64,000 bases of DNA from the NCBI GenBank assembly GCA_964036295.1, contig OZ038471.1, forward strand, positions 1,403,001 through 1,467,000, in the 5' to 3' direction. The translations under genes and the position numbers were made by a program. This document shows positions 44,249-55,804 of the stretch, piece after piece. Under the pieces are notes generated by a model. It saw only the letters and a program-made list of their open reading frames with translations, was not told where the DNA came from and made no database searches. Positions within the stretch are counted from its first letter, which is position 1, and every line of letters begins with the position of its first letter. Origin of the DNA: Plumapathes pennacea (taxonomy: Eukaryota > Cnidaria > Anthozoa > Antipatharia > Myriopathidae).

Positions 44249-44290
44249 TTGATTTCATAGCCCGTGACACGAAAATACGTTGACAACGAA

Positions 44291-46000
44291 ATGGCAAAAC
44301 TGCCTGAAGAAAAATATGAGGCTGTCGTTCACTTAGATTGCCGAGAAACTCAACAGTTGACCAGGACAACACAGGAAAATGCGAATGAAAATGAAAGACA
44401 ATGCGTGATAGATATCACGGGCGAGTACACTCAAGTTGGTGCGGAAAACCAGATCAGAATTACGCCGTCCAGTATTCCCAAGGCCAAACCTGTATTGCAA
44501 GTGATCAAAAGCATTCCCTCCCCGGTTCATCCTGGCAGAGGACGCATGGATTTCCCAAATCCAGAGAAAGATTATGCGTTGCATTTAATGACTTTAAAGG
44601 ATCCGAACTCAAACCGCCGCAGGTCGGAGCGGGAAGGTGACTATGACATAGATGTTGATATCACGAGGGAAGGTAGCCAGGAAACGGAAGCTACAAGCCC
44701 TGACTGTCTGTGGAGACGAAGCAGGAAAAAGACGGGAAGGCCTGATGTCATTGTGTTTTGGTTTCGGTTTTTCGAGCCAAACACTGATTACAGAATCACG
44801 TTCACTCTGAGGAAAATCGTGCACAGCAAGGACAAGTCAAAAAACAGTCAAACACTGCACGAAACAACTATTGTGGTAAGAACAAATCCATCGAAGTCGA
44901 AGTCTGTAAAAAGAAGGTCGAAAGACGCAGGTAAAGATAACAGATCCATTGTCCCCTTTAATTTGCCGGCAGCCACACCGTCCGAGAGGAGTCTGGAGCT
45001 GACTGAGATGTCCAATCACGTGATGAAGCGGCTGCACTTCCCACGTGACAACGGCAGGTGGCAGGAATTCACCAAGGTGTCACGTGACCTCTTGGCCGAG
45101 GACACGAGCTTAGACAGTCGGCTCACAATCCAGTTGGAGGAAAGCGTAATGAAATGCTACCTCAACCGTATGGAGGAATCTAAAGCATTGATACAAGAGG
45201 TATTGTCGCAGACTCCGCAAGCCGTTAACAGCAGCGTGTTGATTGGACGCGCGTATCTTTATCTCGCTGGGGTCCACAGGCGCCAAAAGAACTTGGGGGA
45301 AGTGGAGAAATGCCTTAAGATAGCCGCACAGAACTTTCATGGAAGTCCAGTGAGTCTTGACCAGAGCTTCCTCGCTTATGAGCAAGCCAGCTTCTTGCTT
45401 GATTTCCTACTTTGCTTCCCGTCCGTCAGTCCTAAGTTTCTGGAACAGACAAAGGATGGCCTGAAGAAGTGCATCGCTTTCTGCACTCAGCTCGAGGAGA
45501 TGGCTGAAAATGGAGGGCAACAATTGTACGTGAAAAAGCATCACTTTGCTTTCATCAAGTTCGCCATGCTGTTGCTAAACTGTCGCAACAAGGCGACAAG
45601 AGAGCACGACGTGAGCGAAGAAAACATCAACACTGCTCGAGAATGTCTACACGCTCTGGAGACCAAGTACTGGCATGGCATGGCGCAAGGCGAGAAGCTT
45701 CAGTTTTATCTGGCGCGTTCTGATCTCGAATACCGATTACAAAATTATTCAGACGCCGCAGGGTTTGCCAACGAAGCTCTGAAGATGTCCCAGCTTTTCA
45801 GCTTCAACACAGAAACTAAACCGGCTCGAGAGCGGCTCGATCACATCCGACAAAAATTACAGCAGTTTCACATTCCAGACCAGAATGAGAATGCGGGAGA
45901 CAGTGGCTTCAGTGAAAAAGTGACGTCATTTTCCAGTGATGGACGTACCGCTGACGTCAGTTCTTGCACAGACTCTGATTGGTTGCCAGGAAGCAATTAG
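44291..46000 (+). CDS. RHIM-like motif / TPR-like repeat protein 1 (intronless)
   Basis: An uninterrupted 569-codon frame. The ATG at 44,291 is chosen because it has a good context (A at -3, G at +4); the open frame extends nine codons further upstream without an ATG. Residues 46-57 (YTQVGAENQIRI) match the RHIM pattern [VI]-Q-[VLI]-G-x-x-N-x-[MLI] at every position except the first, which is Thr. A middle module around residue 150 carries FWFRFFEPN followed by YRITFTL, likely beta strands. From about 235 to 545 the protein is alpha-helical with TPR-like pairs (e.g. GRAYLYLAGVHRRQ, YSDAAGFANEALKMSQ). It is a clear paralogue of the gene at 47,538, sharing all three parts, but has one RHIM-like motif rather than two. 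No transmembrane segment or enzyme motif is seen. A signalling adaptor is the most economical reading; the function is inferred. Confidence 0.85.
   Translation: MAKLPEEKYEAVVHLDCRETQQLTRTTQENANENERQCVIDITGEYTQVGAENQIRITPSSIPKAKPVLQVIKSIPSPVHPGRGRMDFPNPEKDYALHLMTLKDPNSNRRRSEREGDYDIDVDITREGSQETEATSPDCLWRRSRKKTGRPDVIVFWFRFFEPNTDYRITFTLRKIVHSKDKSKNSQTLHETTIVVRTNPSKSKSVKRRSKDAGKDNRSIVPFNLPAATPSERSLELTEMSNHVMKRLHFPRDNGRWQEFTKVSRDLLAEDTSLDSRLTIQLEESVMKCYLNRMEESKALIQEVLSQTPQAVNSSVLIGRAYLYLAGVHRRQKNLGEVEKCLKIAAQNFHGSPVSLDQSFLAYEQASFLLDFLLCFPSVSPKFLEQTKDGLKKCIAFCTQLEEMAENGGQQLYVKKHHFAFIKFAMLLLNCRNKATREHDVSEENINTARECLHALETKYWHGMAQGEKLQFYLARSDLEYRLQNYSDAAGFANEALKMSQLFSFNTETKPARERLDHIRQKLQQFHIPDQNENAGDSGFSEKVTSFSSDGRTADVSSCTDSDWLPGSN
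44426..44461 (+). other. RHIM-like motif in gene 1
   Basis: Codes for YTQVGAENQIRI. Known RHIM cores in RIPK1, RIPK3, TRIF and ZBP1 are hydrophobic-Gln-hydrophobic-Gly followed by x-x-Asn. Q, V, G, N and the two trailing Ile fit; Thr replaces the usual Ile/Val at the first position. The same place in the paralogue carries LQLG and AQLG, so Q-[VL]-G-x-x-N is the conserved core. Confidence 0.55.
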
Positions 46001-46165
46001 ACACTCTTCGAGAAGAAAAAAGTGCCTAAATAAGTAGCATGGGTCAAATACTTCAAATAGAACACGACTGTAAAAGTTTACTAAACAGAAAAAGTTTGAC
46101 TTATTCCGACTTACGTAGACTTAATATTTAGACTTATGAAGACTTACGTAGACTTATTATATAGA
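46001..46165 (+). repeat. 3' flank of gene 1 with GACTTA-type minisatellite
   Basis: After about 95 bp of ordinary 3' flank, degenerate units of about 10 bp (GACTTACGTA, GACTTATGAA, GACTTAATAT) begin near 46,096. The same units resume at about 46,493-46,557, so the palindromic elements between them appear to have inserted into an older minisatellite. Confidence 0.6.
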
Positions 46166-46327
46166 CACGAGTGTTTTACTGGAAAATATACCGTGCGTAA
46201 AATCCATACGAAACTACATCCGGGACCCGAGTGGCGTATTTTCCATATCCTCACTAGTGAGGATATCGTTGGAATCATTTCCCGCTTTTGCACGGTTGTT
46301 TGTGCAATTTCTCGTAAAACACTCGTG
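46166..46327. mobile_element. Palindromic element with 14-bp terminal inverted repeats
   Basis: CACGAGTGTTTTAC at 46,166-46,179 is exactly inverted at 46,314-46,327 (GTAAAACACTCGTG). Inside lies a 22-bp perfect palindrome at 46,245-46,266 centred on CTCACTAGTGAG. No coding capacity. It looks like a short non-autonomous element; no clear target-site duplication is seen. Confidence 0.65.
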
Positions 46328-46348
46328 CCTAATATGATAAAAAGAAAA

Positions 46349-46481
46349 TTACACGGCGGCTTGAAGATATGGATTTTATTTGCTCGTGGTAAAAACAATA
46401 TTTTACTCGCGAAGCGCTCGTTCGTAAAATATTGTTTTTACCACTCGAAAATAAAATTCATATCTTCGCGCCGCCGTGTAA
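46349..46481. mobile_element. 133-bp foldback element with arms of about 58 bp
   Basis: TTACACGGCGGCTTGAAGATAT at the left pairs with ATATCTTCGCGCCGCCGTGTAA at the right, and GGTAAAAACAATATTTTAC pairs with GTAAAATATTGTTTTTACC. The loop is a short TCGCGAAGCGCTCGTTC segment. The entire element can fold into one hairpin, typical of a foldback MITE. It follows directly after the element at 46,166-46,327, so the two may be parts of one composite repeat. Confidence 0.75.
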
Positions 46482-46555
46482 TATCCTATATTTATGTAAA
46501 CTTATGCTGACTCATGTAGACTTGTGTTGACTGATGTAGACTTACGTTGACTTAC

Positions 46556-46632
46556 CACCTGATTACCACTTCCGATTACCACTCCTGATTACCACTTCCG
46601 ATTACCACTCCCGGTTACCATTTCCGATTGCG
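46556..46632 (+). repeat. 14-bp minisatellite
   Basis: Five units alternate GATTACCACTTCC- and GATTACCACTCCT-like sequence, drifting to GGTTACCATTTCC at the right end. Non-coding. Confidence 0.85.
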
Positions 46633-47250
46633 TGTGATGCGGGCGCGTTTTAGCAAATGTTGGGCAAATCACAAGATATTTTCGATCTTTTTAAAATTTC
46701 CTTTGACTTTATTTTTCTTTCGACTGTAATGCAATGTCTTTGTCTTACCGATTTTTTCATATTATGCTTAAATTATGCTCGAAAAATGCGGAATTTATGC
46801 CGGCATAATTCTCGCTGCCCGAAGTAGTAGTGAATTATGCTCGAAATTCTGCCGGAAGAATTTATCCAAGCCTAGCGAGGGGAAGAACGGATATTATTTT
46901 TTTGTTTTTCTATTTTTGGGATCTTAAAGTTCGGAAACTAAACTTTCTAGCACTAGCACCTGTCAGGCACTAACAGGTCACGAGAAAGTGACTCATGCTG
47001 AAACGACGGGGAATACCCGAACTGTAGATCGTGAGGTATCACATATCATACGTCGTAAACAACAACAAAGCACATTGGCATTGTATATATATATCGACTT
47101 TCAAGATTCTCGGCACAGCCTTTGCTGTTTCGTAAATTACCCGCCTTCCTGGGTATGCATTTACGAACTATTACAGTTCAGCCTCATCTTTTTCTTCAGA
47201 CAGTTTCGTCGTTCGTTGTCCAACGCCCGCATTTTCGAGTCAAAGGCTTT
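46633..47250. other. Intergenic DNA upstream of RHIM-like gene 2
   Basis: No coding region is supported. A degenerate ATTATGCTCGAAA-type repeat occurs at about 46,760-46,850 with the short inverted motif ATGCCGGCAT in its middle. A run GTATATATATAT at 47,083-47,094 could serve as a TATA-type element but lies about 440 bp from the start codon. Confidence 0.5.
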
Positions 47251-47346
47251 CCTTTGTTTATGTCGATCACTGAGTGCTGCGCACTTGGGGATTCCCCGCC
47301 ACTTCTGCCTGTGACTCGTTGCCACTTTCGGAAACTCCCAGGACTT
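47251..47346 (-). promoter_or_regulatory. Conserved upstream block with palindromic kappaB site, RHIM-like gene 2 (inverted)
   Basis: Read on the minus strand, the order is GGGAGTTTCCGAAAGTG, GGGGAATCCCC (47,287-47,297; GGGGATTCCCC on the plus strand), AGTGCGCA, ACATAAACAAAGG. This is the same order and largely the same sequence as the block at 44,153-44,248. GGGAGTTTCC is a second consensus kappaB decamer, so this gene may have two sites. ACATAAACA fits a forkhead-type site and AACAAAGG an HMG/TCF-type site, both by consensus only. The block lies about 190-290 bp upstream of the ATG at 47,538 in the opposite orientation to that of gene 1. Confidence 0.7.
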
Positions 47347-47537
47347 GTACCTATTGGTTGTTTTGCAACGGGTGATCTGGCGTGTTACAAGAATTGTTAT
47401 CGGTCCCAGTTTCCGTGCTGTAAACATGTGGAAAACGTAAGCAACTGCTTCAGTTCTGAAGAGAAAAGCGAGGGAGTCGTTCTGCATGATTTGATTACGT
47501 TTGTACGCGACATATTCTTACGTCGTATGAATTCAAC

Positions 47538-49469
47538 ATGACACTGAATTTGACGGCTGGTTCGTACGACGCACAACGAGGCAGAGAAAAAGCGACAAAG
47601 GACGTCATTCAAGCCAAAGCAGTACAAGTTATTTTACCGAGGGGGACTGAATGCAAGGGACAAAATCATGTTCTGATAAATTTAAAAAGTACGTTCCTAC
47701 AGCTCGGTGATAACAATAGCATAATCAACATGAACTTTGACACCAACAACGAAGCAGTTTTCGACTTTCTGTCGACAGCCCCGAAGAGCCCCGACAAGAG
47801 TCAAACAGCACTTCGTGTCCTCGGAAGTACCGCCGACAGTTCGGCTTCGGATGATCCGGAACTGATCGAACTGGGAAATATGACCGAACGAATCAACATT
47901 CGCGCAAAAGTTGTTCAGATTATCCTGCCCAGTCAAACGTCGAACAAAAACAGTGACAACACACCCACCATGTTGGATTTGAAAGTGAAAGAAGTCTCTG
48001 GCGTCGCTCAGTTGGGCGCAAGAAACGAACTTTACCTGCGAAGACAGTCGAAAGCTCCGTCGGACAAGTCGTCGGATCCCGAAAGCACTCGTGCCTGTCT
48101 TCGTGTTATCCGGAAACCGAAATCACCCCTGTCAGGAGTCAGAGGAAAAAGACATTCCGTGGAACTTGGATATGACGTGCGCAACACGCCAGACTCCCTA
48201 AAATACAAGATTGAAACAGATGTGGAGTGTAAGAGAGGTGAAGTTTTAGCCAAAACTTCCCGTGTTTGCCGATGGGAGCTGGCAGACTGGAGACCGAACG
48301 AGAAGTACGCAAAATTCTGGTTTCGGTTTTACGAATCCAATGCGAAATACACGTTGACATTTTCTTTGTGGCAACGGGGACCAACTGAGAGGGCAGAGAA
48401 GGACTGCGGCAAACAGCGAGTCGACGCCATCACGGTTACTCTTCAAACAGGCGCTGCAAAAACACAAGCCGGTAAAGTATCCCAGACAGCTAGCATTAGC
48501 AACTACCGTCCGTCAAGAAAGCCCAAAATCCAGAGGATCAAAAATCCAAACAGTACAGGCACAAAACTCTCGGGAGCAGACGTCGAGGCGCTTGGCGAGC
48601 GATTTGATCAGATCATGCAAGTGTTGGTCCCATTGAGAGACGACGGAGAGTGGCAGAAATTTGATGAAAAGGCGGAGACTTTGCTTCGGGAGTACACGGA
48701 TGCAGACACACAGGCTGTTGTTCATCTCGAGCGAGCCGTGACAGCTTCTTATCGAAATGAGAATGCGCGCGCAGAGCAAATTTTTCGTGAACAGGCTTGG
48801 AGGTGCGTGCTTGCTGCTTCAGATCCCTTAGTTCCTCTACTGAAAGGACGAGCTTTTTGCTACCTGGCTGGAATCCGGCGGAGAGCAGAGAAATTGGGAG
48901 ACGCGGAGAAACTCCTCGGATCCTCAAAAAAGGTCCTTGAAGGTTCAGAACACCCCCTTGACCTCGCCTTGCTCGCTTATGAAGAGGGAAGCCTCCAGCT
49001 TTGCTTCATGGAATCTGCGAGTTGTGATCTCAAACAGAGCATGTTCAGAATGGCAATGGAACAATTCGACACATGCGTTAAGCTTGGAGAACAAATGAGG
49101 GAGAATGAACACAACATCTACAACCCGAAACATCAGTTTGCTGTGATGAAGAAGGCCATGCTGTTGCTAAGCAGTGGGACAAAATGGTTCAGAAACAAAT
49201 GTGTGGACGAGAATAGCATCCAAGAAGCAACAAGATGCTTGGATAGCATCCAACGGTTAATGCGCTTGAAACTTCCGCAAGCGCAGTACTGTCTAGTCCG
49301 CGCAGACCAGTTTGTCCGCCAGCACTGCTACGAGGCAGCTGAGAGCTTCAGCCTGGAGGCCTGTGGCCTGTCGCGCATGTGCGGTTTTGACACGTTTGAA
49401 ATCGCCAAACAGCAACTGAAGTTTATTCGTCAGATTCGTTCACAGCCAATAATGTGTCGGGAATCCTAA
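47538..49469 (+). CDS. RHIM-like motif / TPR-like repeat protein 2 (intronless, two RHIM-like motifs)
   Basis: 643 residues in one exon. The N-terminal part is an internal duplication: residues 26-95 and 123-192 each run AKxVQxILP, a linker, a RHIM-like motif, then [AC]LRV[LI]. The two motifs are FLQLGDNNSII (53-63) and VAQLGARNELYL (156-167). Residues 245-280 hold the FWFRFYESN and YTLTFSLW module shared with gene 1. Residues 345 to about 630 form a TPR-like helical region (KGRAFCYLAGIRRRAEKLGDAEKLL; YEAAESFSLEACGLSRMCGF). The similarity to gene 1 covers middle and C-terminal parts with conserved positions such as LLAYEEGS versus FLAYEQAS and KHQFAVMKKAMLLL versus KHHFAFIKFAMLLL. RHIM proteins in animals signal through amyloid-like assembly, so this could be a scaffold or adaptor. 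That role is inferred from motifs only. Confidence 0.87.
   Translation: MTLNLTAGSYDAQRGREKATKDVIQAKAVQVILPRGTECKGQNHVLINLKSTFLQLGDNNSIINMNFDTNNEAVFDFLSTAPKSPDKSQTALRVLGSTADSSASDDPELIELGNMTERINIRAKVVQIILPSQTSNKNSDNTPTMLDLKVKEVSGVAQLGARNELYLRRQSKAPSDKSSDPESTRACLRVIRKPKSPLSGVRGKRHSVELGYDVRNTPDSLKYKIETDVECKRGEVLAKTSRVCRWELADWRPNEKYAKFWFRFYESNAKYTLTFSLWQRGPTERAEKDCGKQRVDAITVTLQTGAAKTQAGKVSQTASISNYRPSRKPKIQRIKNPNSTGTKLSGADVEALGERFDQIMQVLVPLRDDGEWQKFDEKAETLLREYTDADTQAVVHLERAVTASYRNENARAEQIFREQAWRCVLAASDPLVPLLKGRAFCYLAGIRRRAEKLGDAEKLLGSSKKVLEGSEHPLDLALLAYEEGSLQLCFMESASCDLKQSMFRMAMEQFDTCVKLGEQMRENEHNIYNPKHQFAVMKKAMLLLSSGTKWFRNKCVDENSIQEATRCLDSIQRLMRLKLPQAQYCLVRADQFVRQHCYEAAESFSLEACGLSRMCGFDTFEIAKQQLKFIRQIRSQPIMCRES
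47694..47726 (+). other. RHIM-like motif A in gene 2
   Basis: Codes for FLQLGDNNSII, residues 53-63. Leu replaces the usual Ile/Val before Gln; Gln, Leu, Gly and Asn fit the RHIM core (compare the TRIF and RIPK3 pattern of VQ[LV]G-x-x-N). Confidence 0.55.
48003..48038 (+). other. RHIM-like motif B in gene 2
   Basis: Codes for VAQLGARNELYL, residues 156-167. Q-L-G-x-x-N-x-L fits; Ala stands in the first core position. It is the second copy of the internally duplicated module. Confidence 0.5.
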
Positions 49470-49972: not shown

Positions 49973-50989
49973 ATGGGTACTGAATCGTTCACCGTAGCTG
50001 GCCAGTCTGTGGTGGCGGGTCGAATGCAGCTTGCGGCTTTGAATCCAATGATTGGAGGGGAGAATCAAGTAAAAAAAGCCATCGCTCAACATGGTGATGA
50101 GATAGAGACGTTAAAAACTCAGCTGAGAGAAAAGGAAGACGAAATCAATTCTCTTCGGAAGAAGGTGAAGGATTTGGAAAGTAAAAACGGTGACCTGGAG
50201 ATCAAACTGGGGACCAGAGACAGCGAGATTAAGAGCCTGAAAGGAAGGATTGCTAAATTAGAGAAGGAGAAGAAATCTGTTGAAGATGAACTGGCGAGTG
50301 TTCTAGCAAAACTAAGGCGAGTCGAAAGCGAAGTCGACGAACTAAAAGAAGCACGAAACACACAAGAGGACATAAACGCGAAGTTGGAAGAGACCATTGG
50401 AAAATGCAGCAGAAAATTAGAGGGCATGGCTGGAGAGTTAGAAAAATCTAACGAAGAAAACCGTACTTTGAAAAGAGAAGTCAATGATTTGAGAGCCCAA
50501 CAGAAAAATTTGGGGCAAATTGCAAGTTTGGCCGCTCCGGAGGACATGCTCTCCCGCCTTGTTCAACCAGGAACTAAACTTGCGTCGCCAATGCTACTCC
50601 TGGGAGAAATGTGCTGGGAAATCCAAGCCAAAATGTATAAAGCAGTTTTACCAGCTTTTTACACTCCACTCAGGAGTTACAAGATAAAAGCCATCGAAAG
50701 AGACTTGGATAAACTTCCCAAGAGCAAACAAGAGAAAGAAGATGCGAAACGAAGGTACGACAAACTGAAAGAGAAGTTGAATTGGCAAGAGAAATATGTA
50801 GATGTTATGAAGTCTCTACAAGATAGCAGAAACACTGAGGCCCATCCACGATTGACTGAAGAAATGTTATTACATATTGTGGCGGATCTTGAAAAGAAAG
50901 ATTTCCTCAAGGGCTGGTTGTCCCCTGAGAGTATCAAGGAACTCATCGCCATGTGGAAAAACCTCTCTAGCCGTTGTCAACTGAATTAA
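49973..50989 (+). CDS. Coiled-coil protein with C-terminal helical domain carrying RNxxxH (intronless)
   Basis: 338 residues. The ATG at 49,973 has a good context (GCAATGG). Residues 34-180 are strongly charged with heptad leucines/isoleucines (EIETLKTQLREKEDEINSL), a long coiled coil. Residues 203-335 are helical, beginning ASPMLLLGEMCWEIQAKMY. They include R286-N-T-E-A-H291 within a helix-rich segment; R-[ND]-x3-H is the hallmark of HEPN domains, some of which are RNases. At the N-terminus, residues 25-33 (PMIGGENQV) look like the gene 1 motif (TQVGAENQI), but with Pro-Met for the hydrophobic-Gln pair, so it is at best a degenerate RHIM. The gene follows the two RHIM-like genes on the same strand and is also intronless. 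I do not recognise the family with confidence; HEPN membership is a hypothesis. Confidence 0.75.
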   Translation: MGTESFTVAGQSVVAGRMQLAALNPMIGGENQVKKAIAQHGDEIETLKTQLREKEDEINSLRKKVKDLESKNGDLEIKLGTRDSEIKSLKGRIAKLEKEKKSVEDELASVLAKLRRVESEVDELKEARNTQEDINAKLEETIGKCSRKLEGMAGELEKSNEENRTLKREVNDLRAQQKNLGQIASLAAPEDMLSRLVQPGTKLASPMLLLGEMCWEIQAKMYKAVLPAFYTPLRSYKIKAIERDLDKLPKSKQEKEDAKRRYDKLKEKLNWQEKYVDVMKSLQDSRNTEAHPRLTEEMLLHIVADLEKKDFLKGWLSPESIKELIAMWKNLSSRCQLN

Positions 50990-53320: not shown

Positions 53321-55804
53321 TCAGTGAGTGATAAATGAGATAAGATACTCAGGGTACATTTGGGCGTCGTGGAATACCACGTGGATCTTGGGACCCAGGA
53401 CATTATCCACTAGTGAGTCGTAGAGCTTTTCTGGACATCTTTGGTCAACTGGTGGGGGCTGTTTCATTCCTGACCGGCCCCTGGTGAACTTACCAAGCAG
53501 GACTCGTACTAGGTACATGTGCCTCTCACCATTAAAGCCAGGAGAGGTGTAACCCAAAGAACAGGAGGAGTCCCTGGCAAAGTACACTCCGTTTCCATAC
53601 AGCGCTCCTGTTATAAGAGAATTATCACGTTAGAGACGAATGGTATACAGTGCTCGAAATTAAAATAAAGTCCAGGTTGTCCGGATATGCGCATTAGTTT
53701 GCCCGATGGGTTTTCTCCTGGACGACCAGACTATCAATTTGGCAGAGAACCAGTCGTCCGAGCAAACCTTTTGGTCGTCTCGGACGACCGGACGACCGCT
53801 AAACGTAAGGCCACATTTTCAGTTCGATTACGATGAAAGCACTTACCGTGTGTCCCAGCAAAGCTTCTGTTAAAACCTTGATCATTTATGGCAGCCAAAC
53901 TCCGATCGTTCGTGCCATGGAATAAGAGCTCCTCGTTCTCATTTCCGTTACTTTCCGAGCTCATTTTTCTCTTTCTGACAGCGTAGCTCTCATACAGATA
54001 AGGGTTCTGAACACGCTGGATCTTCAAGATGGTTGCATTTTCTTTTCTTTGGCTTTCGTAGAATCGCTGTTGGACCTCATGACACTCGCGGCAATCCAGA
54101 CTGAGCATGACTAAATAAGATGTAACATAAGCTCCAGTCGGGGTTCGAGGCTGGGGAAACCAGTGACGAGGGAGCAGATCTTCTGCAGAAAATTGAAAAA
54201 AATTACAAAAGCTTTAGCTGGCGTTTGTGGAGGTGAGGTTTGAGAAGAATATTTATTTGTTCAAACTATCATATCAATATTAGATGGAGTTAAAAAATTC
54301 AATGCACAAGACTATCCATGTTGACACAGGGGGAGGGGCACAAGGTGTTGCAACCACAAAAATGGCTGCAAGGAGACTATCTTGGAAGTGAAAGGGTTAA
54401 ATTACATGTTTTGTCAAATAAAGCAAAAAATATCAGTAAATAGCTTACAGTTACCTCCATTTTGCCCCAGCACTTTACGAAGCAAAGGAACACTCGCAGT
54501 CCTTTTGCCGAGAAATGTCACCATCATGCCATGGAAGTCAGCAAAGTATTCACGATCTCCGATCAGGAACTGAACCCCCTCAGACCGGCTCCCTAATGCA
54601 CATTCAAGTAAAGAATTCACTTTCTTGCTACATGGCACTTCTTTACCATTGATTGTGTACACCCATTGAATGTAACAAGAAAGCAATTCATTGTTTGAAC
54701 CTGCTTGACGCTCCTTCACTGTTACAGCGATTTCTTCCCAGATTTTGCAAACTACATTGCAAACATCTTGAGCTCCCCCTGAAACTTGGATGCAACTGTT
54801 GCTGATATCGAGTGAGACATTGTATGTTATTTCATGTGCAAGCAGGCGTTTCCAACAGTCTGCACTCAGGTGGCAGATTTCCTCATGCTTCACTATCTGA
54901 TTAGTGCAAGCCTTCGTTAGTTCCCCTTCAAGATCATGCACAGCCTGGGTTAAGCTTGTTTCATGGTTGGCCAATACATGGAAGTTCACCACGTTTTCCT
55001 TGCGAGGGAATCTTGTGCGTTGGATACCATTTACCTCTGGTCCTGCACCAGGCGACTGTAAGCTTTCACTTTGGTCAGAAAGATGAGAATACTCGTCACT
55101 TGTGAGATTGTTAGAATGTTTTTCAAGCAGCCACTGCTGAAAATGGGAGTGGGAAACACTAGGACTGTAGTGATAGACTACAACTCTAATGATGCGAAGA
55201 TTTTGAGGTGACATCTGAGCAAAGTTCTGGAATGCACTATAGATCACATCAGCAGCATCCATTGGAGACATGTGCAGTATTCCTGTACCGATAACTGGCA
55301 TGGAAATGGATGTGAGGCCTTTGGTATCAGCAAACTGTAAGCACTGCTCAACACAATCTTGAACTAGTGACTTGTTGGCTGAGTGACGACAGAGAACAGC
55401 ATGGAGTATGTGTTTTGTTGGCAAGTCCCCAGCGCTAGTCATAATAACTTGGCCTGGCTCAAATGGGCCATGGAGTTCCATGTTTAGGTCGCACTCAATC
55501 TTAACAAGTGGACCTCCTAACTTGGATATTGCACTGTTGAGAACCCCGCCGGAACACAGGTTCAGTTGGCAATCATTAACTGTGATAATTGCATCAACTT
55601 TTTCCATGGTGATGTCTCCCACACAGACCTGAAGTGTCACTCCTCCCATGTTGATTTCACACGAGTTTTGTGCGTCTACTCCATCCATCAGAACAGCCTC
55701 ATCAAGAATGCCATACTTTACGGCCCTCACCTCTGGTTCGCTGGTGTGTATTCCAACCCCACACTCCTACAAAAATATGTGCAATTATGATTAAAACCTT
55801 CCTG

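Follow-up and report, generated by a model that had tools for sequence, protein, structure and literature searches.

Two neighbouring genes on the forward strand of a 64,000-nucleotide stretch of the Plumapathes pennacea genome (C10:1403001-1467000; hereafter the window, from whose first letter positions are counted) each encode a protein in which one or two N-terminal motifs resembling the receptor-interacting protein homotypic interaction motif (RHIM) are followed by a predicted beta region and a superhelix of the tetratricopeptide repeat (TPR) kind. The RHIM assembles mammalian cell-death proteins into fibres. Our preferred reading, which may be right but which we put forward tentatively, is that both genes are members of an animal family, with named homologues in stony corals, that is single-exon here, tandemly expanded and devoid of any detected nucleotide-binding or kinase domain, and that would couple an N-terminal self-assembly motif of the RHIM class to a TPR superhelix, by a mechanism that we infer. 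Judged from sequence, the pair and its coral relatives hint at an uncharacterised signalling family.

Domain layout of the two genes

Gene 1 (44291-46000) and gene 2 (47538-49469) encode 569 and 643 amino acids, respectively. Because in-frame stops precede both ATGs (positions 44258 and 47487), both are predicted from the DNA to be complete single-exon frames, and the proteins share 28% identity over 515 columns (E 4e-44), which bears out the first-pass annotation of this DNA as containing two intronless paralogues. The same annotation had placed three Q-[VL]-G-x-x-N sites in the pair, and the string Q[ILV]GxxN does occur once in gene 1, at residue 48, and twice in gene 2, at residues 55 and 158. 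The gene 1 element (44402-44461, residues 38-57) runs from a hydrophobic strand into TQVGAENQI. Gene 2 carries element a (47670-47732, residues 45-65, VLINLKSTFLQLGDNNSIINM, glutamine at 55) and element b (47973-48041, residues 146-168, ending GVAQLGARNELYLR, glutamine at 158), the second being the one that aligns with the gene 1 motif. Over 20,000 shuffles the chance expectation for the string was 0.011 per protein for gene 1 and 0.015 for gene 2, and 3 of the 20,000 shuffled versions of gene 2 contained at least two strings. The gene 2 motifs sit in an internal repeat (blastp of two 95-aa pieces, E 3e-05, 45 columns, 38% identity), and both have counterparts in two homologues: VQLGDEN (P0001) and VQIGDYS (P0002) for element a, AQVGNKN (P0001) and AQIGNGN (P0002) for element b.

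In the model of gene 1, residues 1-64 have a predicted local distance difference test score (pLDDT) below 50, so that the motif lies in predicted disorder ahead of a beta region (44486-44884, residues 66-198; seven predicted strands of moderate confidence, with no fold assignment) and a TPR-like helical superhelix (44984-45868, residues 232-526). The gene 2 model likewise has a beta region (48096-48449, residues 187-304) and a TPR-like superhelix (48573-49442, residues 346-635). In this subfamily the beta region thus appears, in the models, to join the RHIM-like motif to the superhelix. Stacked helix-turn-helix units are found in models and fold matches alike over residues 228-536 of gene 1 and 343-642 of gene 2, in keeping with the TPR-like C-terminus proposed at first pass, though both proteins fall below the Pfam TPR cut-offs. 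Fold searches were dominated by TPR chains, and helical repeats readily match one another; the C-terminal halves resemble in fold the TPR superhelices of APPBP2, Rap/AimR, LGN, APC/C chain O, MalT domain III and IFIT1 at 5-14% identity in the matches listed, a shared fold that shows no function.

A PDB sequence search with both proteins gave a best E of 0.52 and no credible relative. Pfam detected no nucleotide-binding, kinase, TIR or death domain in the window proteins, and listed no NB-ARC or NACHT match for them or for the 32 members of alignment A2 (32 of the 51 sequences collected at that stage; alignment A3 held 16 of the 51). NLR identity was considered for the window proteins and rejected, as no NTPase domain was found. 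NCBIfam returned two matches for gene 1, both below the cut-off, and nothing for gene 2; PADLOC gave no match in the four proteins scanned.

Conservation of the motif among homologues

Three protein searches returned 3, 46 and 155 matches, the best 120 of the 155 being listed for the third. Among the matches listed, 127 homologues were examined together with the two genes, and 117 of these 129 sequences contain Q[ILV]GxxN. The 12 without it are either one position off (P0050, P0053, P0058, P0072, P0074, P0079 and P0099; QIGxxS, QFG, QMG), begin inside the protein (P0047 and P0060), have a different N-terminus (P0052) or are degenerate (P0003 and P0049). Since the homologue set is redundant, it was reduced to 24 representatives (<75% identity), excluding sequences shorter than 500 aa (P0048 and P0003 excepted) and those at least 75% identical to a kept one. 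Setting aside gene 2, P0001 and P0002 (two motifs), P0003 and P0052 leaves a non-redundant gene-1-type set of 19, in which Q48 is conserved in 19/19, G50 in 19/19 and N53 in 16/19. Loss of Q-x-G-x-x-N in orthologues, which had been named at first pass as counting against the motif, is therefore not what the relatives display.

Mean column conservation in the gene-1-type set rises from 0.50 ahead of residue 66 to 0.68 over the beta region and 0.76 over the TPR region, then drops to 0.63 for the tail; within an otherwise variable N-terminus, Q, G and N belong to a small group of near-invariant columns. Conservation against such a background leads us to reject a chance string, which the first-pass annotation had doubted on account of the repetition of the motif. 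The hydrophobic strand preceding the core is also conserved, and the commonest form of the motif approximates FVLNVDARIMQIGRENGISFGS, that is, a hydrophobic strand, a short loop and M/T/A/V-Q-I/V-G-x-x-N-x-I/L. The named homologues are both from stony corals, namely Oculina patagonica (P0063, LOC144666814) and Porites harrisoni (P0083).

Gene 1 ends in a disordered tail (45872-45997, residues 528-569, last letters DVSSCTDSDWLPGSN), and several homologues end alike. S-[EN]-[SL]-D-W or a similar string recurs in the C-terminal tails of gene 1, P0006, P0054, P0063 and P0083, reading SDWLPGS in gene 1 and DW-x-x-I-L in the other four; the latter string resembles an LC3-interacting motif.

A tandem cluster of paralogues

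Searches of the genome (290 Mb, 24 contigs) with gene 2 and its paralogues located a cluster of 15 tandem genes (C10:6.334-6.384 Mb), of which one is split between two frames, together with a further locus on C1. In the matches listed for the gene 2 search, these paralogues share 25-30% identity with gene 2, beginning at gene 2 residue 351 at the earliest, within the TPR region. TPR_2 exceeds its 27-bit cut-off in 7 of the 11 cluster paralogues scanned. A related N-terminal element is nevertheless present in the 12 aligned members, with Q in 10/12 and G in 11/12; the tetrads are VQVG (three), VQLG (two), AQIG (two) and one each of VQIG, AQVG, VKVG, VQLS and AHVG, so that four of the 12 have the exact mammalian V/I-Q-V/I-G. 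The three genes left out of the alignment are L012 (motif not found in the open frame), L010 (VQFE, with no in-frame ATG upstream) and L014 (split, with VKVG in a separate frame).

Several other features of the cluster were recorded. Among the cluster tails listed, all carry DSG-[WYCF]-S, in full or truncated. A 555-aa open frame beside the cluster (L018 5484-7151) has a segment, LTIEVNRCGNVIQGDNTTTTI, laid out like RIPK3 VNIYNCSGVQVGDNN, and the homologue P0003 has a segment, VVNISKNSGIIICGDHTVV, that was noted alongside it; neither protein has a Pfam RHIM match. Inside the cluster, L016 6230-7811 and 8736-9914 hold a coding-like minisatellite and a transposase-like open frame, the latter presumably piggyBac-like.

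Comparison of the motif with RHIM profiles

Several results weigh against placing the motif in the RHIM class. As the first-pass annotation had remarked, the first core residue departs from Ile/Val: the window tetrads are TQVG (gene 1), LQLG and AQLG (gene 2), none of the form V/I-Q-V/I-G, and all three motifs are without Gly two places before Gln. The check proposed at first pass, the Pfam RHIM profile (PF12721), came out negative, an outcome that had been named there as refuting the interpretation. With a Pfam limit of E<=10 (HMMER filters drop most matches above ~0.1) and 20 bits or more taken as a PF12721 match, the profile was listed neither for the window proteins nor for the other 30 A2 members, and was absent from the matches of 14 motif segments, 11 cluster paralogues, the 555-aa neighbour, P0003 and one further segment; the same library scored the human RIPK3 RHIM at 42.8 bits (E 3e-11). 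PDB searches with a motif piece and with motif profiles (the latter at E<=10) did not retrieve any RHIM chain, and short strings similar to the motif occur in unrelated PDB chains, e.g. HAUS8 and MinC. A hidden Markov model (HMM) of 25 motif segments scored RIPK3 at 9.2 bits (E 9.7) and RIPK1 at 7.1 bits (E 43), scores equalled by 27 and 122 of 20,000 shuffles, respectively, with the best shuffle reaching 16.2 bits. By hhalign, the gene-1-type motif profile (A5, one row of which contains a typing error) aligns with RIPK3/RIPK1 at a probability of 15.8% and the cluster motif profile (A6) at 2.4%, both in register, and A5 and A6 match each other weakly (4.9%). Reversed RHIM profiles score near the real ones (7.29 vs 10.72 for A5, 8.18 vs 9.76 for A6); for A5 against A6 the reversed score is 2.38 vs 6.66. 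In the cluster, Asn at +5 is found in one of 12 paralogues, and the 13 of 122 N-terminal columns that reach 0.8 (mean 0.49) include residues outside the element as well as Q and G. The AlphaFold model of gene 2 draws low-confidence strands at both motifs, which may lie within small beta structures. Finally, among the RIPK3 tetrad variants described in passages of PMC12119088, TQIG did not activate NF-kB, nor did VQSG.

In a local rerun, column shuffles scored as well as the real profiles in 3/300 (A5 vs RIPK), 2/300 (A6 vs RIPK) and 18/300 (A5 vs A6) cases. The likeness to RIPK1 and RIPK3 goes beyond composition but is marginal, and falls short of demonstrated homology. Given this marginal likeness and the negative profile, we therefore term the motif RHIM-like; RHIM proper was rejected as an assignment on the PF12721 result. 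The same passages of PMC12119088, which deal with variants other than TQVG, LQLG and AQLG themselves, report that most natural tetrad variants tested in RIPK3 (LQIG in the set) activate NF-kB, at lower levels, and that all those tested supported ZBP1-dependent death. Because RIPK3 variants kept function, the TQVG of gene 1 need not disqualify it from assembly.

Mechanism and alternative explanations

Under our preferred reading, the TPR superhelix would bind a ligand or client, the N-terminal motif would nucleate cross-beta polymerisation with like motifs of the same family or of a partner, and the polymer would relay an immune or cell-death signal. A position-conserved N-terminal motif, in predicted disorder in gene 1, a predicted TPR superhelix and tandem expansion as single-exon frames together make up the arrangement expected of a sensor or adaptor that carries a polymerising tag, an interpretation that could hold and that we advance with reserve.

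The main rival to a polymerising motif is one-to-one docking, in which the N-terminal element would be a conserved docking or beta-augmentation peptide for a partner or for the protein's own beta region, its RHIM likeness arising by convergence on a Q-x-G turn. We consider this possible if doubtful. The absence of an RHIM profile match in the window proteins and relatives, the similar strings in HAUS8 and MinC, the conservation of the preceding hydrophobic strand and the scarcity of Asn in the cluster (1/12) are all as docking would have them; however, the invariant residues of the gene-1-type set are precisely the RHIM core Q and G, the exact tetrad recurs in 4/12 cluster paralogues, and the two copies in gene 2 suit multivalent assembly.

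An unlikely alternative is that the motif, instead of being linear, belongs to a small beta module that folds and has been duplicated in gene 2. The gene 2 repeat runs from AKxVQxILP to QLGxxN (blastp E 3e-05), and AlphaFold places strands at residues 23-32, 44-58, 116-130 and 145-167, both in favour of such a module, but ten-residue pLDDT means at these strands are 45-72, the corresponding region of gene 1 is below 50, and the cluster paralogues keep the element though their detected similarity to gene 2 starts at the TPR region. The earlier concern that the motifs might sit inside folded beta domains accordingly does not apply to gene 1 and persists for gene 2 in the form of low-confidence strands.

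That the string is fortuitous and has no bearing on function is highly improbable. In favour of this view, the DNA pattern of the motif is common in the genome (1529 and 1566 matches, one figure per strand; reversed control, 1729 and 1863), although a DNA pattern is uninformative genome-wide. Strongly against it, both the homologues and the remote paralogues conserve the motif where the surrounding sequence varies.

Genomic neighbourhood

Most of the first ~40 kb (1-40000) consists of satellite repeats, with units of ~348 bp in opposing orientations, and base skew and repeat orientation flip near 20-21 kb. Directly downstream of gene 2, on the same strand, lies a single-exon gene for a 338-aa coiled-coil protein (49973-50989, +), which gave sub-cut-off matches of coiled-coil type only, among the matches listed (25 of 106 Pfam rows). 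Further downstream, on the minus strand, frames at 53734-55730 encode a macrodomain (E 2.5e-19) and a PARP catalytic domain (E 1.7e-09) and are PARP14-like; other minus-strand neighbours include an alpha/beta hydrolase frame and TIP120 frames, which we take to be CAND1.

Comparison with known systems

The mammalian RHIM proteins RIPK1, RIPK3, ZBP1 and TRIF are among the closest known systems, and RIPK3 and RIPK1 were compared in sequence. These two share with the window motifs a hydrophobic-Q-hydrophobic-G-x-x-N core after a hydrophobic stretch, whereas the window proteins differ in their lack of a kinase, TIR or death domain, of a PF12721 match and of a Gly at the second position ahead of Gln; the loop that leads into the core is, by eye, one residue shorter in many family members. 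According to passages of PMC12119088, cnidarians yielded no RIPK1 homologue that combines a kinase, an RHIM tetrad and a death domain. Among invertebrates, Drosophila PGRP-LC, PGRP-LE and Imd have a divergent RHIM-like motif (passages of PMC7885112), a likeness drawn from description.

The literature searched (titles and abstract openings, with few subscription journals) contained no animal protein combining an RHIM-like motif with TPRs. If our reading is correct, a conserved, expanded family with homologues in corals would offer an entry point to the question of whether amyloid immune signalling is an ancestral animal trait, and would bear on how the RHIM of mammals, the PP motif of fungi and the BASS3 motif of bacteria are related. 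A further suggestion is that profiles derived from known RHIMs may miss candidates detectable by conservation analysis. A broader proposal, which we regard as rather doubtful, is that anthozoans possess a large, tandemly expanded family of NTPase-less TPR receptors whose N-terminal RHIM-class motifs assemble amyloid signalosomes, as an animal counterpart of fungal PNT1; such a family would be evidence that cnidarians have RHIM-class signalling independent of RIP kinases.

The fungal systems provide a close architectural parallel. The available passages give G-(I,V)-Q-(I,V)-G as the core of RHIM amyloids, common to PP (PMC7885112), and describe PP as homologous to RHIM and BASS3 (PMC12261475). 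PNT1 is described there as an N-terminal RHIM-related PP motif, an NB-ARC and C-terminal TPRs (PMC7885112, PMC7889193), so the first-pass statement that no pairing of the motif with helical repeats had been described is wrong for fungi, and a claim to the first such pairing was rejected. No HeLo-type domain was found in the six minus-strand window frames scanned, or in the 338-aa coiled-coil protein that follows gene 2, as far as the 25 Pfam rows listed out of 106 show. As far as these passages describe it, PNT1, with a RHIM-related motif at one end and TPRs at the other, is paralleled by the window proteins with their RHIM-like motif and predicted TPR fold. It contains an NB-ARC in the middle and is accompanied by a HELLP effector encoded next to it, whereas the window proteins have a predicted beta region in place of the NB-ARC and no NTPase domain in Pfam.

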